From Spirochaeta thermophila DSM 6578 (GTDB taxonomy: Bacteria > Spirochaetota > Spirochaetia > Winmispirales > Winmispiraceae): a stretch of 64,000 bases of DNA. Below the pieces are notes generated by a model. It had not been told where the DNA came from. It ran no database searches and was given only the letters and a program-made list of their open reading frames with translations. This document shows, one piece after another, positions 1 through 49,824 of this stretch (the stretch's first letter is position 1; each line of letters starts with the position of its first letter). The position numbers and the translations under genes were made by a program. Location: NCBI RefSeq assembly GCF_000184345.1, contig NC_017583.1, positions 1 through 64,000 of the forward strand, read 5' to 3'.

Positions 1-13
1 TTCCTGTATGTGA

Positions 14-33
14 TGTGGAAAATTTGTGGATAA
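14..33 (-). promoter_or_regulatory. Two DnaA boxes upstream of dnaA
   Basis: Positions 25-33 are a perfect complement of the DnaA box TTATCCACA. Positions 14-22 carry the one-mismatch form TTTTCCACA on the same strand, 11 bases away start to start. They lie directly before the dnaA start and fit DnaA autoregulation and an origin extending left of the window. Confidence 0.75.
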
Positions 34-51
34 CATGCGAGGGAGTACGAG

Positions 52-1410
52 ATGGAACACGCCTGGGATTACAGCATCGTATGGAAGGAAACACTCAATC
101 TCCTGAGGGGCGTCCTCAGCGAACAGGAGTTTCGCCTCTGGTTTTTCGAGGTGGACTACTACGACGGATCGGAGGAGACCCTCAGGATCAGGGTCCCTTC
201 CTCTTTCGTCCGGGATCAGATCAAGCAGCGGTATCAGAGGCTCATAGAAGACAAGTTCTACGAACTCCTCGGAAGAAAACTCCTGCTCGATTTCGTGGTG
301 GAAAAGAGGTCCCTCGCCCAGGAACGACCTGTTTCCTCTTCCTCCCCCCAAAGGGAAATCCCAAAGGAGAGACCACCCCATCCCCAGCTCCGTCGAGACT
401 ATACCTTTGAGAACTTCGTGATCGGTGAGAACAATGCGTTCGCTGCGAACGCAGCACTCGCGATTGCAAAGAATCCCGGAACGGCTTACAACCCGTGTCT
501 CATCTATGGAGGCGTCGGCCTGGGAAAGACACACCTCCTCCAATCCATTGGCAACTCGGTGTATGGGGAATTCCAAAATCTGAAAGTGGTGTACGTCACT
601 GCGGAGGAATTCACCAACGAATTCATCGCCTCGATTCAGAACAAAGAGACCCACAAGTTCAAGACAAAATACCGAAACGTGGACGTACTCCTCATCGACG
701 ACATCCACTTCTTCATGAACAAGACCGAAACCCAGGAAGAACTCTTCCACACCTTCAATGCGCTCTACGATGCCAACAAACAGATGGTGTTCACCTGTGA
801 CCGCCCGGTCTCCGAACTGAAGAACATCAGTCATCGCCTCAGGAGCAGGTTCGAGCGGGGTCTCAATGTCGATCTCCAACCTCCTTCGTTCGAGACCAGG
901 TATGCCATTCTCAAAAAAAAGATAGAACAGAAACCCATTCATATACCCGACGAGGTCATCACCTTCATCGCCGAACACGTCACCACAAATGTAAGGGATC
1001 TCGAGGCCGCACTCACCAAACTCATCGCATACGCCGAGCTCGTACATAGGGATATCACCATCGATATCGCAAAGTCACAGCTCAAGGACATGTTCACGAC
1101 CACGAAACAGACGAACATCACGATAGATCTCATACAGAAGGTGGTGGCCGACTACTTCGGGATCACGCAGAGCGACCTTAGAAACAAGAAGAGGACCAGG
1201 ACGGTGGTCTTCCCTCGGCAGATCGCCATGTACATCGCAAGGGAACTTACTGAATACTCGACTACGGAGATAGGGGAATACTTCGGCGGCAGGGATCACA
1301 CCACCGTAATGTATGCCATACAGAAGATAGAATCGAAGATGAGGACGGATCCTACCCTCGATACCATCATCGCCCAGCTCATCAGAGAGGTCCAGGAGGG
1401 TACGAAATAA
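52..1410 (+). CDS. dnaA: Chromosomal replication initiator DnaA
   Basis: DnaA binds DnaA boxes at oriC, melts the duplex and loads the DnaB helicase. The 452-residue product has normal family length. An N-terminal DnaB-interaction domain (about 1-90) and a variable linker (about 90-120) are followed by the AAA+ domain. Walker A GGVGLGKTH is near residue 154 and Walker B LLIDDIHF near residue 213. The C-terminal DNA-binding domain carries the signature GGRDHTTV near residue 412. DnaA boxes lie on both sides of the gene and dnaN follows 192 bases later, the classic origin arrangement. The ATG is preceded by only a weak Shine-Dalgarno (GGGAG, 41-45). Identification is secure. Confidence 0.98.
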   Translation: MEHAWDYSIVWKETLNLLRGVLSEQEFRLWFFEVDYYDGSEETLRIRVPSSFVRDQIKQRYQRLIEDKFYELLGRKLLLDFVVEKRSLAQERPVSSSSPQREIPKERPPHPQLRRDYTFENFVIGENNAFAANAALAIAKNPGTAYNPCLIYGGVGLGKTHLLQSIGNSVYGEFQNLKVVYVTAEEFTNEFIASIQNKETHKFKTKYRNVDVLLIDDIHFFMNKTETQEELFHTFNALYDANKQMVFTCDRPVSELKNISHRLRSRFERGLNVDLQPPSFETRYAILKKKIEQKPIHIPDEVITFIAEHVTTNVRDLEAALTKLIAYAELVHRDITIDIAKSQLKDMFTTTKQTNITIDLIQKVVADYFGITQSDLRNKKRTRTVVFPRQIAMYIARELTEYSTTEIGEYFGGRDHTTVMYAIQKIESKMRTDPTLDTIIAQLIREVQEGTK

Positions 1411-42033: not shown

Positions 42034-42810
42034 ATGACAGCTGCGACGAACATACCTTGGAAGAAGAGGATCCGTATCCTGGGCATCCCCGTGGATCGTG
42101 TGGAGGATGCGGATCTCGAGCGGGTGTTCCATCACTTCCTCCTCGATGGGCGGCTCCACCATATCGTGTTCGCACGGCGTTCGGATTGCATGCGTGCCCG
42201 CTGTTCGAAGCGGAAGCGACGGATACTGGAAGAAGCATCTCTCGTCCTGCCTCTTGATCGTTCGCTCGTGTGGGCGGCTCGACGGCTCCACCAGGAGGCC
42301 CCTGTGAGGTACCTTCCTTTTTCCTTCATCGTCCGGCTGCTGCGTTTCCTGGAGGAGAAGGGAGAACGGGTGTACCTCCTTGGAGAGAGCCCACAGGATA
42401 TCCTCACCATCGAGCGGAATATCCGGGAGACGTTCCCCGGTCTTCGTGTGGTGGGACGTTACCACGGCAACTTCCCAAAGGATGTGGAGGACACGATCCT
42501 CACCGCGGTGAAGAAGGCCACGCCGGCCCTCATCCTGATAGGGAGCGGTATTCGCGGTGGGGATGAGTGGGTGTCGCAACACAGGGCGGAACTTCCCCCT
42601 GCCATGGTGATCGTACATCCCGAGACGATGCAGGTCTTCGCGGGGAGAAGGAAGAGGGTGTCTCCTGAGGAGTTCTACGGGCGCATTCCCCCGCTGAAGG
42701 GATTCGTCCTCAACCCCCTCCGGATCCTGAAGGTGTTCTATTATCTTTGGTTCGGTTTTCTGGTGATGGTGTACAAGGTGTTCGGTTTAAACAAGTCGCG
42801 AGATGATTAA
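42034..42810 (+). CDS. WecG/TagA/CpsF-family glycosyltransferase
   Basis: The 258-residue product fits the GT26 family that adds ManNAc, ManNAcA or related sugars to lipid-linked carriers. Typical segments: ILGIPVDRVED near the N-terminus, GERVYLLGESPQDILTIERN (about 109-128), and ALILIGSGIRGGDEWV. The C-terminal end is hydrophobic and basic (RILKVFYYLWFGFLVM), suggesting membrane attachment. The acceptor is unknown; it may act in envelope glycan synthesis. GGGGGG lies before ATG 42034. The next gene overlaps by 8 bases. Confidence 0.85.
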   Translation: MTAATNIPWKKRIRILGIPVDRVEDADLERVFHHFLLDGRLHHIVFARRSDCMRARCSKRKRRILEEASLVLPLDRSLVWAARRLHQEAPVRYLPFSFIVRLLRFLEEKGERVYLLGESPQDILTIERNIRETFPGLRVVGRYHGNFPKDVEDTILTAVKKATPALILIGSGIRGGDEWVSQHRAELPPAMVIVHPETMQVFAGRRKRVSPEEFYGRIPPLKGFVLNPLRILKVFYYLWFGFLVMVYKVFGLNKSRDD

Positions 42811-43939
42811 AGTAGCGCTTATAGATATGAAGGGAGGGAGCGAGGACTTTTTCAGGCTCCTCCTTCCGGAAGATGTCTCCATGGTTCTGCTGGATGAGAC
42901 CGCAGTGAAGGTGCGGCTCGGTGATGAGAGACCGGATGCGGTGATCCTTGTCCATGGTGCGGGAGATGAATGGCAGGGGATCGCGAGAACACTGGTGGAT
43001 GTCTGCCCCCATATTCCCCTCGTCCTCTGCTCTCCCGACCCGTCCCCCCACACGGTGGTGAGGGGGATGGACCTGGGTGCCGTGGACTATCTCCCTTTCC
43101 CTCCTGAAAGGGAAGCCCTTCATCGTGCACTTCAGCGGGCACTTCGGTGCAAAGGCTACTCCTCTTCGGGCGTGGGGGACAGGTCTCCGCTCGAGCGTCT
43201 GGTGGGCAAGAGCGAGTCGATCGTGAAGATCCGGGAATATGTGCCCTTGGTGGCCCGGGTGAAGGAGACCGTGCTCATCCAGGGCGCGACGGGGACGGGC
43301 AAGGAACTCGTGGCCCGGATCCTCCACGATCTCTCTCCCAGGAGGGAGATGCCTTTTGTGGCGGTCAATTGTGGTGCACTTCCTCCCTCTCTCATCGAAG
43401 CAGAACTCTTCGGTACCGAGGAGGGGGCCTACACCGATGCGCGGAGGCGGCCGGGTCTTTTTGAGCAGGCTGACAACGGGACGCTCTTCCTCGACGAGGT
43501 GGGAGAGCTTCCGGCGGACCTGCAGGTGAAGTTCCTCCGTGTCCTGGAGGAGGGGCGAGTCGTGAGGGTGGGCGGACATCGCTCGATCCGGGTGGATGTG
43601 CGTGTGGTGTGCGCCACCCACAGGGATCTGGCGGGGGAGGTGAAGCGGGGGCGGTTCCGGGCGGACCTCTTCTACCGGATCAATGTGCTGAAGATCTCGA
43701 TTCCCCCCCTCACCGATCGCAAGGAGGATATCCCCCTTCTCGCCTCGTATTTCACCCGGATGCTCGCGGACCAGTACGGATGCTCGCCCAGGATCTCGTC
43801 CGGGGCCATGGACCGCCTTCTCTCGTACGACTGGCCGGGTAACGTGAGGGAACTGAAAAACGTGCTCACGCGGGCCGTGCTCGAGGCGAGGTTCAGGGGG
43901 CTCGAGATGATCACCCCCGATCTGGTGAGATTCGAGTAG
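42803..43939 (+). CDS. NtrC-like AAA+ protein with degenerate receiver, no GAFTGA and no DNA-binding domain
   Basis: The 378-residue product resembles sigma54 activators but lacks three hallmarks. The receiver-like N-terminus (about 1-115) has no phospho-acceptor Asp: the strand reads DAVILVHGAG. The AAA+ domain (about 130-365) has Walker A GATGTGKE and Walker B LFLDEVGE, but the sigma54-contact loop GAFTGA reads GAYTDA. The protein stops after the AAA+ lid (NVRELKNVLTRAV) without a Fis-type helix-turn-helix. It is therefore unlikely to be an ordinary sigma54 activator. Start overlaps the upstream gene by 8 bases; its stop abuts the convergent gene. Confidence 0.8.
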   Translation: MIKVALIDMKGGSEDFFRLLLPEDVSMVLLDETAVKVRLGDERPDAVILVHGAGDEWQGIARTLVDVCPHIPLVLCSPDPSPHTVVRGMDLGAVDYLPFPPEREALHRALQRALRCKGYSSSGVGDRSPLERLVGKSESIVKIREYVPLVARVKETVLIQGATGTGKELVARILHDLSPRREMPFVAVNCGALPPSLIEAELFGTEEGAYTDARRRPGLFEQADNGTLFLDEVGELPADLQVKFLRVLEEGRVVRVGGHRSIRVDVRVVCATHRDLAGEVKRGRFRADLFYRINVLKISIPPLTDRKEDIPLLASYFTRMLADQYGCSPRISSGAMDRLLSYDWPGNVRELKNVLTRAVLEARFRGLEMITPDLVRFE

Positions 43940-44401
43940 TCATCTGATCACCCTCACCGCTTTCGCGAGGAGCACCGGGACAGGGGTCCCGTCCGGGGAG
44001 GAGTCCACGTCGATGAGCCTGCACAGGACGATGACCCTCCTCCTCTCGATGAGGCTCTCGGGGAGGATGGGATCCCTCCTCGAGAGGGGTATCCTCGATC
44101 GGAACTCCGCACCCCTGAGGATGACGTCCGCGCGGTAGAGGGCCACCTCCTCCTCCGAGAGCCATGCGCCCGAGACGAGTTCCATCTGGGCGGTGAAGGA
44201 CTCTCCTTCCTCGGGATGTAGGACCTTCACGGAGCCTATGATACCATCGAGGACGAGGTAGAACCCTGATATCTCCTCTTTTCCCTCGGGAAGGGTCTCG
44301 ATGAGCTCTTCGAGGGTGAGGTCGAAGAGCACACCCCCGACAGGGTCGTATGCCCACAGGAAGGTTCCGAGCATCATGTACAGGAGGAACAGTCGCTTCA
44401 T
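43940..44401 (-). CDS. Predicted secreted protein of unknown function
   Basis: The 153-residue product has a signal peptide (MKRLFLLYMMLGTFLWA) and a mixed alpha/beta mature part with two charged loops. No lipobox Cys and no known family. GGGTGA lies 6 bases before ATG 44401; a GTG at 44410 is also in frame. The promoter overlaps that of the divergent SDR gene. Probably periplasmic. Confidence 0.55.
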   Translation of the reverse strand: MKRLFLLYMMLGTFLWAYDPVGGVLFDLTLEELIETLPEGKEEISGFYLVLDGIIGSVKVLHPEEGESFTAQMELVSGAWLSEEEVALYRADVILRGAEFRSRIPLSRRDPILPESLIERRRVIVLCRLIDVDSSPDGTPVPVLLAKAVRVIR

Positions 44402-44405
44402 GTCG

Positions 44406-44434
44406 TTCACCCGCTCTCTATGTCATGATAGGAT
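44406..44434 (+). promoter_or_regulatory. Candidate SDR promoter
   Basis: The -35 is TTCACC (44406-44411) and the -10 TAGGAT (44429-44434), 17-base spacing. It ends 6 bases before GTG 44441 and 21 bases before GTG 44456, so the gene could be read leaderless from the first start or by Shine-Dalgarno from the second. Confidence 0.5.
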
Positions 44435-45216: not shown

Positions 45217-45245
45217 TTGACAAACCATACATAGACTTATATTAT
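45217..45245 (+). promoter_or_regulatory. Strong promoter of the STAS-PspA operon
   Basis: The -35 is perfect TTGACA (45217-45222) and the -10 TATTAT (45240-45245), 17-base spacing, the best sigma70 match in the window. Transcription should start near 45252. An 11-codon open frame (45260-45295) overlaps the start of the first structural gene. Confidence 0.8.
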
Positions 45246-45259
45246 GTAGGTATAGTCAC

Positions 45260-45295
45260 ATGAAGCAAAAAGCGAGGTTCGGGAATGGCAAATAA
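45260..45295 (+). CDS. Possible 11-codon upstream reading frame (leader peptide)
   Basis: ATG 45260 opens a frame for MKQKARFGNGK that stops at 45293-45295, 8 bases after the ATG (45285) of the STAS gene in another frame. It begins about 8 bases from the predicted transcription start and has no ribosome-binding site. It could couple or tune translation of the operon. It is very short, so it may be chance. Confidence 0.3.
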   Translation: MKQKARFGNGK

Positions 45296-45836
45296 CGACA
45301 TCATCCCAGGATTCGACGAGGAGAAGGATGAAAGCCTCAAGATACGTCTTCAGAAGGTCGACTCGGTGCCTGGGTGTCTCATCCTGTTTCTTACGGGCTA
45401 CATAGATACGTATAATTCGAATTTTTTCCAGAAGAAGGTCACCAGGGCGATCGAACAAGGATACATCCGTCTCATCTTCCACTGCGGCGGGCTCAACTAT
45501 GTCTCCAGTACCGGTATAGGGTCGTTCACCGCGTTCCTCAAGGCCGTGAAGCCCAGGGGGGGAGACATCGTGCTCCTCGAAATCCAGCCGAAGGTGTACG
45601 AAGTCTTCCAGCTCCTCGGATTCTCCCAGTTCTTCACCATAAAGGACAATCTCGAAGAGGCGGTCGCCCACTTCTCCGAAGGGGGGCAGAAGGTACAAAC
45701 CGAGATCTTCCCCAAGATCTTCAAGTGTCCCATCTGTTCGAAGAAGTTGAAGGCCACGCGTCCTGGGCGCTTTCGTTGTTCGGAGTGTAAGACGATCCTC
45801 GCCATAGACAACAACGGCCAGGTCTTCCTGGGATAG
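45285..45836 (+). CDS. STAS-domain protein with C-terminal zinc ribbon
   Basis: The 183-residue product has a STAS domain (about 25-130) like anti-sigma antagonists of the SpoIIAA type: LTGYIDTYNS, then YVSSTGIGSF, in which the Ser that is phosphorylated in SpoIIAA is retained. A four-Cys zinc ribbon follows (CPIC...CSEC, about 147-169). Such a fusion is unusual. The family role is partner switching with a serine kinase; no such kinase lies nearby. GAGG lies 7 bases before ATG 45285. PspA follows 11 bases later. Confidence 0.75.
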   Translation: MANNDIIPGFDEEKDESLKIRLQKVDSVPGCLILFLTGYIDTYNSNFFQKKVTRAIEQGYIRLIFHCGGLNYVSSTGIGSFTAFLKAVKPRGGDIVLLEIQPKVYEVFQLLGFSQFFTIKDNLEEAVAHFSEGGQKVQTEIFPKIFKCPICSKKLKATRPGRFRCSECKTILAIDNNGQVFLG

Positions 45837-45847
45837 GGAGGAAGGGT

Positions 45848-46543
45848 ATGGGCTTCTTTCAGCGCCTCGTGAGGGCCGTGAAGGCTCAATTCAATGCCCT
45901 TCTCAAGCGTATCGAGGATCCCGAGAAGCTTCTCGATCAACTCCTCCTCGACATGAACAAGCAGCTCCTCGAGGCGAAGCGCTCGGTTGCCCAGGCCCTC
46001 GCGGATGAGAAGAGGCTGGAGAAGAGGGTGTCCGAATACGCAGCTCAGGTCGACGACTGGGAGCAGAAGGCCGTGACCGCCCTCAAGGCCGGCAGGGAGG
46101 ATCTGGCGAAGCAGGCTCTGGTGAAGAAGGCTGAGCTTCTCGAGGTGCTCGAGCAGTACCGAAAGAGCCATGAGGAGCAGCACGCCACGGTGGAGAAGCT
46201 GAAGGCCTCGCTCCGAGACCTCCAGGACAGGATTGAGGACGCGAGGAGGAAGAGGAACATCCTCATCGCACGAGCGAAACGGGTCCAGGCCCAGAAACGT
46301 CTGCAGGAGACCATAAAGGGGCTCTCTGATACCTCTGCCTTTGCCGCGTTCGAGGAACTCGAGAAGAGAGTCGAGGAGCTGGAGGCCGAGGCCGAAGCCA
46401 CCGAGGCCCTCGAGGTGGAAGATACGACCCTGTCGCTTGAGGAACAGATAAGGAAGCTCGAGAAACCGGAGGACAAGGCGGACGTCCTCCTCGAGGATCT
46501 CAAGAAACGACTGGGGCTTCCGCATGATTCCTCGGGGTCGTGA
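45848..46543 (+). CDS. pspA: PspA/IM30 (ESCRT-III-like) membrane-stress protein
   Basis: The 231-residue product is almost entirely helical. It opens with the amphipathic helix MGFFQRLVRAVKAQFNALL, then the IEDPEKLLDQLLLDMNKQL segment typical of PspA/Vipp1, and continues as a long coiled coil to about 185. The C-terminal part (about 195-231) is acidic. PspA proteins polymerise on damaged or stressed inner membranes. Unlike E. coli, no pspB, pspC or pspF is adjacent. GGGAGGAAGG precedes the ATG. The next gene starts 20 bases before its stop. Confidence 0.9.
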   Translation: MGFFQRLVRAVKAQFNALLKRIEDPEKLLDQLLLDMNKQLLEAKRSVAQALADEKRLEKRVSEYAAQVDDWEQKAVTALKAGREDLAKQALVKKAELLEVLEQYRKSHEEQHATVEKLKASLRDLQDRIEDARRKRNILIARAKRVQAQKRLQETIKGLSDTSAFAAFEELEKRVEELEAEAEATEALEVEDTTLSLEEQIRKLEKPEDKADVLLEDLKKRLGLPHDSSGS

Positions 46544-47162
46544 GATACCCATTGGCGTGTTCCTCCCCGACGCTGATGTGAGGTACTACTTCTGGCTGGA
46601 CTACAAGGACTTCCCCCATCCCCAGAAGGAGGACATCGTCATACTGGAAGATGTCGAAGAGGCGAAGTGCTGCCAGGTGGTCTCCCTCCCCTGGAAGGAT
46701 TTTCTTTCCATATCCCTCGAGACCGGAGAAGGGGGACCGGTGTGGATCCCCTATGGTCCGGCCGACTATGTTGCCCAGGCGTTCGCCCTCGGGTGCGGAG
46801 ACTACTTGAAGGAACCCTGGAGCGTCGGAGAGCTTCTGGTACGGGCCCGACGTTTTCTTCCCCAGCGGGTGGTGTTGCGAGGAAAGGTCTGTGAGTACCA
46901 CAATGGAGTCCTCAGACGGGAGGGGAAGGAGGTGCGTCTCACTCCCGTTCAAGGGCATCTCTTCTCCCTCCTGGTGCGGCACAGGGGGAAACCCCTCGGG
47001 AGGGAGGCGCTCTCCCATGCCGTGGGCATGAGGAACGGATCGTCCCGGGCCGTGGATATGCACGTCTCCCTGTTGAGGAAGAAACTGGCCGAACTCGATC
47101 TGGAGGGTGTGCTCGTTTCCGTGATCAGAAAGGGCTACATGCTGATCGACGAGGATCGATGA
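46524..47162 (+). CDS. OmpR/PhoB-type regulator with degenerate receiver
   Basis: The 212-residue product has a C-terminal winged-helix domain (about 120-210) of the OmpR type (RLTPVQGHLFSLLVRHRGKPL, RAVDMHVSLLRKKL, VSVIRKGYML). The N-terminal part (about 8-112) keeps only the end of the receiver fold (LGCGDYLKEPWSVGELLVRARR) and lacks the acidic pair and the phospho-acceptor Asp in a recognisable place. It may sense something other than phosphate. Lying inside the pspA operon, it could be its regulator. It overlaps pspA by 20 bases and the next gene by 4. Confidence 0.75.
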   Translation: MIPRGREIPIGVFLPDADVRYYFWLDYKDFPHPQKEDIVILEDVEEAKCCQVVSLPWKDFLSISLETGEGGPVWIPYGPADYVAQAFALGCGDYLKEPWSVGELLVRARRFLPQRVVLRGKVCEYHNGVLRREGKEVRLTPVQGHLFSLLVRHRGKPLGREALSHAVGMRNGSSRAVDMHVSLLRKKLAELDLEGVLVSVIRKGYMLIDEDR

Positions 47163-48148
47163 AGGAATCAGGCATGAGGGATTCTCTTTTCCTCCCTGTG
47201 TACTATGTGGTGTGGCTCCTCGTGATACTCCTTCTGGGAGTGCTTTCCTGGGGGATGGCCTCCTGGGGTCTCGCCGACGGCGTGTATGTCACGGTGGATG
47301 GAAAGACCACAGTGCTTCCTTTCTTCCTGAAGGCCCTGAGGGCCCTGGGGCCTTCGGCAGGAGTACTGGCGCTCATCATAAGCCTCTCGAGGGTGTTCGT
47401 TCGTCCGGGCGTTCTCTTCCTCTCCATCCTGGAGCTCGCCCTGCTCATGACGGGATATCTCTACCTCTGGTATGCCTTCGCCGTTCCTCCCCTGAAGGAA
47501 GGGGTGGCCGCCCTTGAGTGGCGCTACACCTCGCCGGTCTCTTCGCAGGCACTCGTGAGAACGGCGGAGGATCGGTACCTCTTCGTGTATGCCTCGGGAA
47601 GGTTCGATGCCGGGGTGGTGGATGTGTGGTTCGAACGCGAGCCGGTCGTCCGCCTCTTCCAGGAAGGGTGGTTCGACGAGGAGACCGGGCGGTATGTCCT
47701 GGGAGAGACGGAATCGATCGACCTTTCCCGAAGGTACGACGCCTCGGTCCTCGCTCCGATCCCCGGCTGGGCTTCCGTGTGGGAAGAGGTGACGTTGACC
47801 ATGGAAGAGGTGTGGGACCAGGCCTTTTCCATGGGGGCACCACGGTCTCTTCTCTTCCTCGGCTCATGGTTCCTCTTCTCGATCGGTATGTGGACCTGGG
47901 TGAGATTCACCCGCTGGCCTTTCTTCAACACGATCCTCGCCGTCGGTATGGGTATGACCCCCGGGCTCTTCATGTGGGGGGTGAAGCGCTTCACCGAAGA
48001 GCCGCTCTTCGTCGAAGTCGTGTCGCGGATTCCCCTGTCCTTTGACTACGTGGTTCTCGGCATCCCCGCCTTCATCGGACTATGCGCCCTCCTCTTCCTC
48101 CTCTTCCTCCTGCCCTATGCACGCCTCCGGGAGGAGGTGGCATGGTGA
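47159..48148 (+). CDS. Membrane protein with 3+3 segments around a periplasmic domain
   Basis: The 329-residue product has three predicted membrane segments near the N-terminus (about 13-37, 60-85, 90-108), a soluble region of about 120 residues, and three more segments (about 230-250, 260-280, 298-322). This is the topology of LptF/LptG (YjgP/YjgQ) permease subunits of the LPS exporter, but I see no clear sequence match, and no function is claimed. Coupled to the upstream regulator (ATGA) and to the next gene (7-base overlap). Confidence 0.6.
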   Translation: MKESGMRDSLFLPVYYVVWLLVILLLGVLSWGMASWGLADGVYVTVDGKTTVLPFFLKALRALGPSAGVLALIISLSRVFVRPGVLFLSILELALLMTGYLYLWYAFAVPPLKEGVAALEWRYTSPVSSQALVRTAEDRYLFVYASGRFDAGVVDVWFEREPVVRLFQEGWFDEETGRYVLGETESIDLSRRYDASVLAPIPGWASVWEEVTLTMEEVWDQAFSMGAPRSLLFLGSWFLFSIGMWTWVRFTRWPFFNTILAVGMGMTPGLFMWGVKRFTEEPLFVEVVSRIPLSFDYVVLGIPAFIGLCALLFLLFLLPYARLREEVAW

Positions 48149-49824
48149 GTCCTGCAGGGCGTATCGTGAGGGGGCTCTTCGTCTGCTATCTGATCTCTTT
48201 CGTCCTCGTGATGGGATGGGTGTATGTCATGGGGAAGGGTGAGGCTCCTGTACATCCCCTGCTCGCCGTTCCGTGGCGGTTGTATGAGGGTGTCGCCGGA
48301 TGGTTGAGACATTTCCTCTTCTTTCATCTCCTCTCGGTGGTCCTGGTCGTGGGCTTTTTCTCTTCCCGATACCTGCTCATCCAGCAGGATGTGAAGGATC
48401 GCTTCAGGATCCTCCAGGGCCTCCTCATCTTCGTGGTGGTGGAGGCGGGGGTCTATCTCCTCCTCCAGGAGGGGGTCAAGCCGCTCGTGATACGGAATGC
48501 ACGACATCTGGAGTACAGGACCCGGCTCGCCGAGGAGTTTCTCGACCTCTACGAAGGTGCGAAGGAACGAGGGGACGAGGCGACGATGCTGCAGGCACTC
48601 AGGAGTTACACGAGGCTGATCCCCTCGGATGAGGCGTACCGTGAGGAGCTTCGTACCCTCGAGCGGGGACGGCCCATGGTGGAGGAGGCGGGGGAGGAGG
48701 AGGGTTTCCCCGCCGTACCACGCAACCTCTCGGCGGGGGAGGCCCTTCGTCTGGCGGAAGAGGCCTTCCAGAAGGAGGACGCGTATACGGCCTACTACTA
48801 TGCGCGGCTCGCCCATACGATCGAGCCCTCCCTGGTGGAGGCGAGAAGGCTTCAGGCGAAGGCGTGGGAGGCCATCCTGCGGGAGGAAGAGACGGCCTCC
48901 TCCAGGAAGGACAAGGACTTCTTCGCCGCCAAGCGGCAGGCGTACGAGCGTCTCATGGGAGGAGACTATCTCGGTGCCTACTATGCCTTCATGCGCCTCA
49001 AGGAGGAACGGCCCCGTGACGCCGATGTGGTGCGGTACTACGAGGAGGCCAGGGAGAGGGTGGAATCCTACGCCTTCTATTACGAGGAGATAGCGAATCT
49101 GTCCGACGTGGGGGGGATTCCCCGTGTCTTCTTCGCGAGGAGGGGGGATGACAGGATCGACTTCTTCTATCTCGAGAGGGTGATCCGGGTGGCCGAGGGG
49201 ACCTACGGTTTCGGGGTGGAGGTGACCGGTGTGGGAGGGGAGGGTGCCCTGCTCTACCGCCTCCGGGCGCCCTACGCAAAGATCGAGCAGGGTGTCCTCG
49301 TGCTCCACTGTGTGGGGCGGAGCGATCGGTCGGTGCGCTTCCTTCCCGAGGAGGAGGGCGAGGTCCCGTACGACCCTGTGTTCCTCGTGCCGGTGGGGCT
49401 CGATGTGGATCAGATCCTGCTCCTGGGTGGCACAGGGTGGGAGGGGAGGACCCTCTCCGAACTCTTCCAGCTCGTGTGGTTTCCCGATCGGGTGCTCCTT
49501 CCCCGAGGGGAGATCACGACCCTCATCTATATACGGATATACAGGGCGCTGCTCTTTCTGATAGGATCGTTTCTCGTGCTCGCCCTTGCATGGAGGGGAC
49601 GCTACAGGGCTGCGAGGCGATCGTGGGGATTGCTCGTGGTGGGGGGATCTCTCGTGGCTGCGGCGGTGTGGTGGGTTGCGGATATGATGGAGAAGGGAGG
49701 CGCCCGTCTCATCGCGGCGGCCATGGCGCTGGGTGGGAGCGGGGCGGCGGTCGCCGTCCTCGTCGTGGGGAGCGCCGTGCTCCTGGGCCTCAGCCTCCTC
49801 CTCCTGGTGAGGGCGATGCAGTGA
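48142..49824 (+). CDS. Large membrane protein with 3+3 segments and a TPR-like periplasmic region
   Basis: From ATG 48142 the product is 560 residues: three membrane segments (about 8-30, 50-72, 90-112), a large soluble region with helical repeats of TPR type (about 115-330, e.g. NLSAGEALRLAEEAFQKED), a beta-rich part (about 330-465), and three C-terminal segments (about 470-492, 500-522, 535-558). It shares the 3+3 topology of its upstream neighbour, so the two may form a heterodimer. GGAGGAGG precedes the ATG. Function unknown. Confidence 0.6.
   Translation: MVSPAGRIVRGLFVCYLISFVLVMGWVYVMGKGEAPVHPLLAVPWRLYEGVAGWLRHFLFFHLLSVVLVVGFFSSRYLLIQQDVKDRFRILQGLLIFVVVEAGVYLLLQEGVKPLVIRNARHLEYRTRLAEEFLDLYEGAKERGDEATMLQALRSYTRLIPSDEAYREELRTLERGRPMVEEAGEEEGFPAVPRNLSAGEALRLAEEAFQKEDAYTAYYYARLAHTIEPSLVEARRLQAKAWEAILREEETASSRKDKDFFAAKRQAYERLMGGDYLGAYYAFMRLKEERPRDADVVRYYEEARERVESYAFYYEEIANLSDVGGIPRVFFARRGDDRIDFFYLERVIRVAEGTYGFGVEVTGVGGEGALLYRLRAPYAKIEQGVLVLHCVGRSDRSVRFLPEEEGEVPYDPVFLVPVGLDVDQILLLGGTGWEGRTLSELFQLVWFPDRVLLPRGEITTLIYIRIYRALLFLIGSFLVLALAWRGRYRAARRSWGLLVVGGSLVAAAVWWVADMMEKGGARLIAAAMALGGSGAAVAVLVVGSAVLLGLSLLLLVRAMQ

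Follow-up and report, generated by a model that had tools for sequence, protein, structure and literature searches.

In E. coli, the coupling-helix Glu of the lipopolysaccharide (LPS) permease subunits LptF and LptG contacts LptB, acting with LptB R91, and in MlaFEDB the STAS protein MlaB sets a precedent for a STAS protein that partners a lipid transporter (PMC10094684). At least one well-studied spirochaete has no LPS yet has Lpt proteins, and the transport of lipoproteins and glycolipids in spirochaetes is an open question; in the Lyme spirochaete the Lpt system has been described with BB0464-0466, BB0807/0808 and BB0838 (PMC10353723). Pairs of CesT/Tir and PspA genes have also been published (Ravi et al. 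2024, PMC11237479), as have helix-turn-helix (HTH) neighbours of PspA in Spirochaetota (PMC9239133). Here we analyse a five-gene block in the window, bases 1-64000 of the single-contig genome of Spirochaeta thermophila DSM 6578 (2,560,222 bases). The block encodes a STAS-zinc ribbon protein (STASzr), PspA, an OmpR-type winged-helix protein with a pseudo-receiver (the regulator) and two membrane proteins, M4 and M5. A first-pass annotation, made from the letters alone, had placed PspA at the centre of an undescribed envelope-stress module, an interpretation that our results support in part. It is an even call, in our judgement, whether the operon is one version of an ancestral spirochaete inner-membrane module whose core is cytoplasmic STASzr together with M4-M5.

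The strongest likeness of the locus to a described system is that of M4 and M5 to the Lpt permease (PF03739; LptB2FGC). AlphaFold models, built on the window and locus sequences only, agree with the three transmembrane (TM) segments, soluble domain and three further segments that had been proposed for both proteins, and in these models the resemblance of this adjacent gene pair to LptF/LptG goes beyond topology alone to the fold itself, over nearly the whole length. The best 15 Foldseek matches of M4 were all LptF or LptG (top 7.5e-6), and in VIA-align 17 LptF/G entries reached Z 10.2-12.5, with the next unrelated fold at 7.6. Some of the M4 alignments had a large root-mean-square deviation, so the arrangement of its domains may differ from that of LptF/G. 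The M5 model aligned with LptG 6mjp_G at Z 21.7 (332 residues, 4.4 A), spanning residues 1-559 and skipping the part that resembles tetratricopeptide repeats (TPR). Profile-profile comparison by hhalign with 46 canonical spirochaete LptF/LptG sequences gave probabilities of 95.9% for M4 and 96.8% for M5, while reversed profiles stayed at or below 7.6% and window-shuffled ones at or below 5.2%. M4 has no Pfam LptF_LptG match; PF03739 matched 16/34 M5 homologues, some above the cut-off, under which the window M5 falls (17 vs 27.9 bits). M4 and M5 homologues share only 11-36% identity.

The pair also departs from LptF/LptG in several ways. M5 carries a TPR-like insert, and TPR structures rank after LptG among its Foldseek and VIA matches, with TPR Pfam matches present in M5 homologues; because the insert comes after TM3 in the alignment with LptG, it is predicted to be periplasmic. 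A canonical LptF/LptG pair is encoded elsewhere in the same genome (1275075-1277383), and LptF/G matches above the cut-off were found in 25/25 genomes searched. In the canonical spirochaete proteins, the coupling helix between TM2 and TM3 has a Glu in 43/46 and a Gly in 44/46 sequences, whereas neither residue is conserved in the M4 or M5 alignments; models and alignments place a 4-residue turn in M4 where the coupling helix would be, and a short helix lacking the Glu and Gly in M5. Since the coupling residues are absent and the M4 turn is short, we regard M4-M5 as probably LptF/G-derived and do not class them as functional LptFG. The same evidence bears on the possibility that M4-M5 are a second ATP-driven Lpt-type exporter that uses LptB to move a spirochaete-specific glycolipid or lipoprotein, with STASzr and PspA only regulating or protecting it. 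The full-length LptF/G fold of both proteins, the near-canonical length of the M5 TM2-TM3 loop and the description of an LPS-less spirochaete with a working canonical Lpt set (PMC10353723) would all fit such an exporter, but the loss of the coupling residues and the M4 turn speak against it, as does the lack of any ABC ATPase gene in the five-gene block, which has no LptA, LptB, LptC or LptD gene either, and we judge it improbable.

The distribution of the genes in other spirochaetes indicates which of them belong together. A search of genome contigs with M5 alone gave no match, and the more conserved STAS profile was used, which retrieved 511 relatives, with 80 loci named; gene order was counted in the 52 loci of the class with at least 6.5 kb of downstream sequence, and presence in 296 sampled genomes of the phylum, 118 of them in the class. 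All five genes occur together in 37/52 class loci, spread over many families, and the block is thus kept outside S. thermophila. Taken singly, PspA is present in 45 of these loci, the regulator in 50, M4 in 41 and M5 in 43, and the usual order is STASzr-(CesT)-PspA-regulator-M4-M5-(DnaJ)-MurA, with MurA convergent. M5 homologues were found in 38/60 relatives by single-sequence search, and the M5 profile matched 149/296 phylum genomes (101/118 in the class and 48 outside it). The STASzr profile matched 185/296, its weaker matches outside the class being probably other STAS proteins, and PspA exceeded its cut-off in 47/296. STASzr and M5 lie at most 6 kb apart in 46 of the 68 genomes that have both, and 32 of those 46 have no PspA gene; in these 32 the distance is about 1.0-1.7 kb, space for M4 alone. 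One genome has the block broken into STASzr-PspA-regulator and M4-M5. PspA is therefore not the core of the module, since STASzr stays beside M4-M5 in genomes without it, and the central place given to it by the first-pass annotation has to be abandoned.

STASzr is the most constrained part of the block. It aligns with SpoIIAA at 3.2e-9 and resembles SpoIIAA/RsbV in its STAS fold, with Ser75 opposite the phosphorylatable Ser58, as had been noticed from the sequence. Ser75, Ser74 (which stands at the position of SpoIIAA Asp57) and all four Cys of the ribbon are invariant in 27 class homologues, with a mean column identity of 72%. Homologues outside the genus are 70-87% identical to the window protein, and the identity of about 80% across families, against the far lower values for M4 and M5, means that STASzr must be under unusual constraint. 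Unlike SpoIIAA/RsbV, STASzr has a fused zinc ribbon, Ser in place of Asp57 and this extreme conservation, and no cognate kinase or sigma gene adjoins it. RsbW-like ATPase domains are encoded away from the locus, elsewhere in the genome: a SpoIIE-type phosphatase gene at 2536843 is followed by an RsbW-like ATPase gene at 2537907, about 68 kb from the block across the record start. Partner switching by STASzr is possible, yet the phosphatase and kinase genes are unlinked to it. As a cytoplasmic STAS protein tied to a membrane complex resembling a lipid transporter, STASzr is like MlaB, in layout only, and the block differs from MlaFEDB in having no MlaF-type ATPase, MlaE or MlaD.

The promoter ahead of STASzr, described earlier as near-perfect, recurs among the relatives. 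When 98 distinct class upstream regions were aligned on TTGACA, the form TTGACA-N17-TAnnnT was present in 79, with the pattern (A)TTTGACAAA-N14-TAnnAT, and the middle of the spacer was unconserved, which is good evidence that this is a genuine sigma70-type start common to the class. Scores of at least 10/12 were reached in 102/107 class loci, compared with about 3% of shuffled sequences.

These results also bear on the model of the first-pass annotation, namely that the genes form a Psp-type envelope-stress regulon, with PspA under the control of STAS partner switching and the membrane proteins acting as its sensors. The invariant Ser75, the SpoIIE phosphatase and RsbW-like ATPase of the genome and the high frequency of PspA in the blocks (45/52) are consistent with that model. 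However, the linkage of STASzr with M4-M5 survives without PspA, the phosphatase and kinase genes are away from the locus and the conserved sigma70-type promoter suggests steady expression. A family search covering the five genes and three upstream ones did not find PspB, PspC or PspF, already noted as absent in the earlier reading, and the rest of the block is conserved even when PspA is missing, in both respects unlike the Psp response. A regulon of this kind is, for us, an unlikely explanation of the locus.

With moderate confidence, we read M4-M5 as an ATPase-uncoupled, LptFG-derived handler or sensor of lipids or lipoproteins whose state is read by STASzr, with PspA and the pseudo-receiver regulator recruited in many lineages. 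M4 and M5 would be LptF/LptG-type permease subunits that diverged from canonical LptFG, with a TPR domain gained in M5 and the LptB-docking residues absent, and they may pair as an LptFG-like heterodimer. Their membrane cavity and periplasmic beta domains could bind an amphiphile, such as a glycolipid, a phospholipid or the acyl chain of a lipoprotein, while the periplasmic TPR domain of M5 might recruit a protein partner. Such a pair would do no pumping with LptB. In the cytoplasm, STASzr would contact M4-M5 and read their state, phosphorylation of Ser75 being the putative switch for signalling; the pseudo-receiver winged-helix protein, where present, may tune transcription, and PspA, where present (in many relatives together with a CesT/Tir partner), would patch the inner membrane.

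Several observations weigh against this reading. Because the TM2-TM3 loop of M5 is near the canonical length, some contact with an ATPase may be conceivable for this protein. In the small genomes of one family (f19), M4-M5 are kept without any other gene of the block and STASzr is lost, and another small genome keeps STASzr with M5 absent; therefore, neither strictly needs the other. In addition, a gap of 155-450 bases precedes M4-M5 in most relatives, so the pair may be a separate transcription unit there. The S. thermophila block differs from these relatives, having all its genes overlapping or nearly so: the five co-directional open reading frames (ORFs; Table 1) are separated by 11, -20, -4 and -7 bases, as reported before, provided that M5 starts at the ATG at 48142 and not at an alternative in-frame ATG upstream, at 48082.

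Table 1. Positions of the promoter, genes and M5 subdomains of the block in the window
Feature	Position	Strand	Evidence
Sigma70-type promoter, TTGACA-17-TATTAT	45217..45245	+	11/12 hexamer bases match
STASzr, STAS domain and C-terminal CPIC...CSEC zinc ribbon, 183 aa	45285..45836	+	Pfam STAS 1.2e-22
PspA/IM30 family ESCRT-III-like protein, 231 aa	45848..46543	+	PspA_IM30 2.6e-48, residues 3-221
OmpR-type winged-helix protein with pseudo-receiver	46524..47162	+	Trans_reg_C 3.6e-11
M4, membrane protein of LptF/LptG fold (3 TM - beta domain - 3 TM), 329 aa	47159..48148	+	AlphaFold2 pLDDT 77.6, pTM 0.74
M5, membrane protein of LptG fold, 560 aa, with a TPR domain inserted	48142..49824	+	AlphaFold2 pLDDT 86.9
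M5 residues 146-308, TPR-like insert separating TM3 from the beta domain	48577..49065	+	Helical hairpins in model
M5 beta domain, residues 326-417, counterpart of LptG jellyroll/beta-taco	49117..49392	+	Strands in model; hhalign columns 356-494 vs LptF/G 172-344

The gap before M4 has a content of its own. In relatives with 155-450 bases between the regulator (or STASzr) and M4 (loci L133-L212 and L061-L100), it carries DnaA boxes, 56/57 in one orientation and frequently as tandems (TGTGGATAAcyTGtGGAtaa), at two sites separated by about 200-247 bases; a count over 54 loci gave 61 exact boxes within the 500 bases that precede M4 and 20 in the remaining ~810 kb. This element is absent at window position 47159, where the regulator and M4 overlap. 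In S. thermophila, dnaA lies at about 388 and paired tandem boxes flank the record start upstream of it (14-33 and 2560023-2560042); these boxes, together with a GC skew that turns positive at the record start (window 1-400 and record end), probably mark oriC. With the same paired layout adjoining dnaA, the element that precedes M4 resembles a second DnaA-binding site of the origin type, and it is a candidate site of DnaA titration, reactivation or transcription control. In two genomes, G026 and G239, GC skew has its minimum at dnaA, 146 and 260 kb away from the gap, which was therefore rejected as the chromosome origin there. A small ORF suspected to be conserved in the gap was also rejected: its translations show no relationship, and what is conserved is DNA, namely the DnaA boxes. 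No Rfam RNA was found in the gap.

A further possibility is that the linkage of the genes mainly reflects conserved gene order near the replication origin and not joint function. Among single-contig genomes with dnaA at the start of the record, the block lies 48-257 kb from that gene, and most relatives have the DnaA-box element between the regulator and M4, both of which would fit that explanation. However, the linkage of STASzr with M4-M5 also holds in genomes that have these genes as far as about 1.2 Mb from the record start, and M4-M5-type pairs occur with other neighbours in several other classes and in the f19 genomes, which makes proximity to the origin a very improbable account of the linkage. 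More speculatively, and on balance we doubt it, spirochaetes could have, besides canonical LptFG, another LptFG-type complex, uncoupled from any ATPase and equipped with a periplasmic TPR arm, that senses or handles lipids or lipoproteins and signals to the cytoplasm through the near-invariant STASzr, an undescribed form of envelope surveillance that in many lineages would be tied to DnaA through the element before M4.

Regarding the remaining two proteins, their domain calls were borne out by family searches, as was the STAS domain of STASzr, which also has a C4 ribbon. PspA is a bona fide member of the PspA/Vipp1 (IM30) family, matches PDB Vipp1/PspA structures at 5.5e-36 and is the sole copy in the genome. 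The winged helix of the regulator (Trans_reg_C) was detected in 21/21 homologues and a receiver domain (Response_reg) in none of these, their acidic residues and Lys not being conserved, in agreement with the degenerate receiver recognized at first; the pseudo-receiver is likely read via protein contact. Many relatives have a CesT/YbjN-type gene directly before PspA, between STASzr and PspA, and are thus like the published CesT/Tir-PspA dyad, from which the window locus differs by lacking that gene.

The claim that the module is undescribed held in part. Neither the STASzr-M4-M5 module nor the whole arrangement is described in the open-access literature that we searched (subscription papers lay outside the search), and the main text of PMC11237479 contains no occurrence of STAS or Lpt, but the CesT/Tir-PspA pairs and HTH neighbours noted above had already been published. 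From their chromosomal position, BB_0353/BB_0354 would be the Lyme spirochaete orthologues, and in open-access literature these two appear only in a taxonomic indel paper. An LptFG-like pair distinct from canonical LptFG, with M5 in most genomes of the class and hypothetical in the literature found, provides concrete test genes.

Control of the operon by sigma-54 was considered and rejected: the genome has RpoN, though no good -24/-12 site was seen upstream in the loci inspected. An AAA+ gene of the sigma-54-activator type (42803-43939) lies about 1.3 kb upstream of STASzr; its product has a GAYTDA loop in place of GAFTGA and no HTH domain by Pfam. Between this gene and STASzr, a convergent gene (43940-44410) encodes a small, apparently secreted protein. 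In relatives, the AAA+ gene is found upstream of STASzr in 44/52 loci and the small-protein gene in 37/52.

Other neighbours vary among lineages. A membrane-anchored DnaJ-domain gene, missing in the window, comes right after M5 in 34/52 class loci (e.g. L075 4684-5550, L080 and L094). In several families, an opposite-strand trio resembling an extracytoplasmic function (ECF) sigma factor, an anti-sigma factor and YbjQ separates the regulator from M4 (L063 5278-6580 and loci like it). Genomes of one family (f8) have two PspA copies without STASzr and M5, and in one of them (G009, L100 7339-10219) a PspA gene is followed by a PspC-domain gene.

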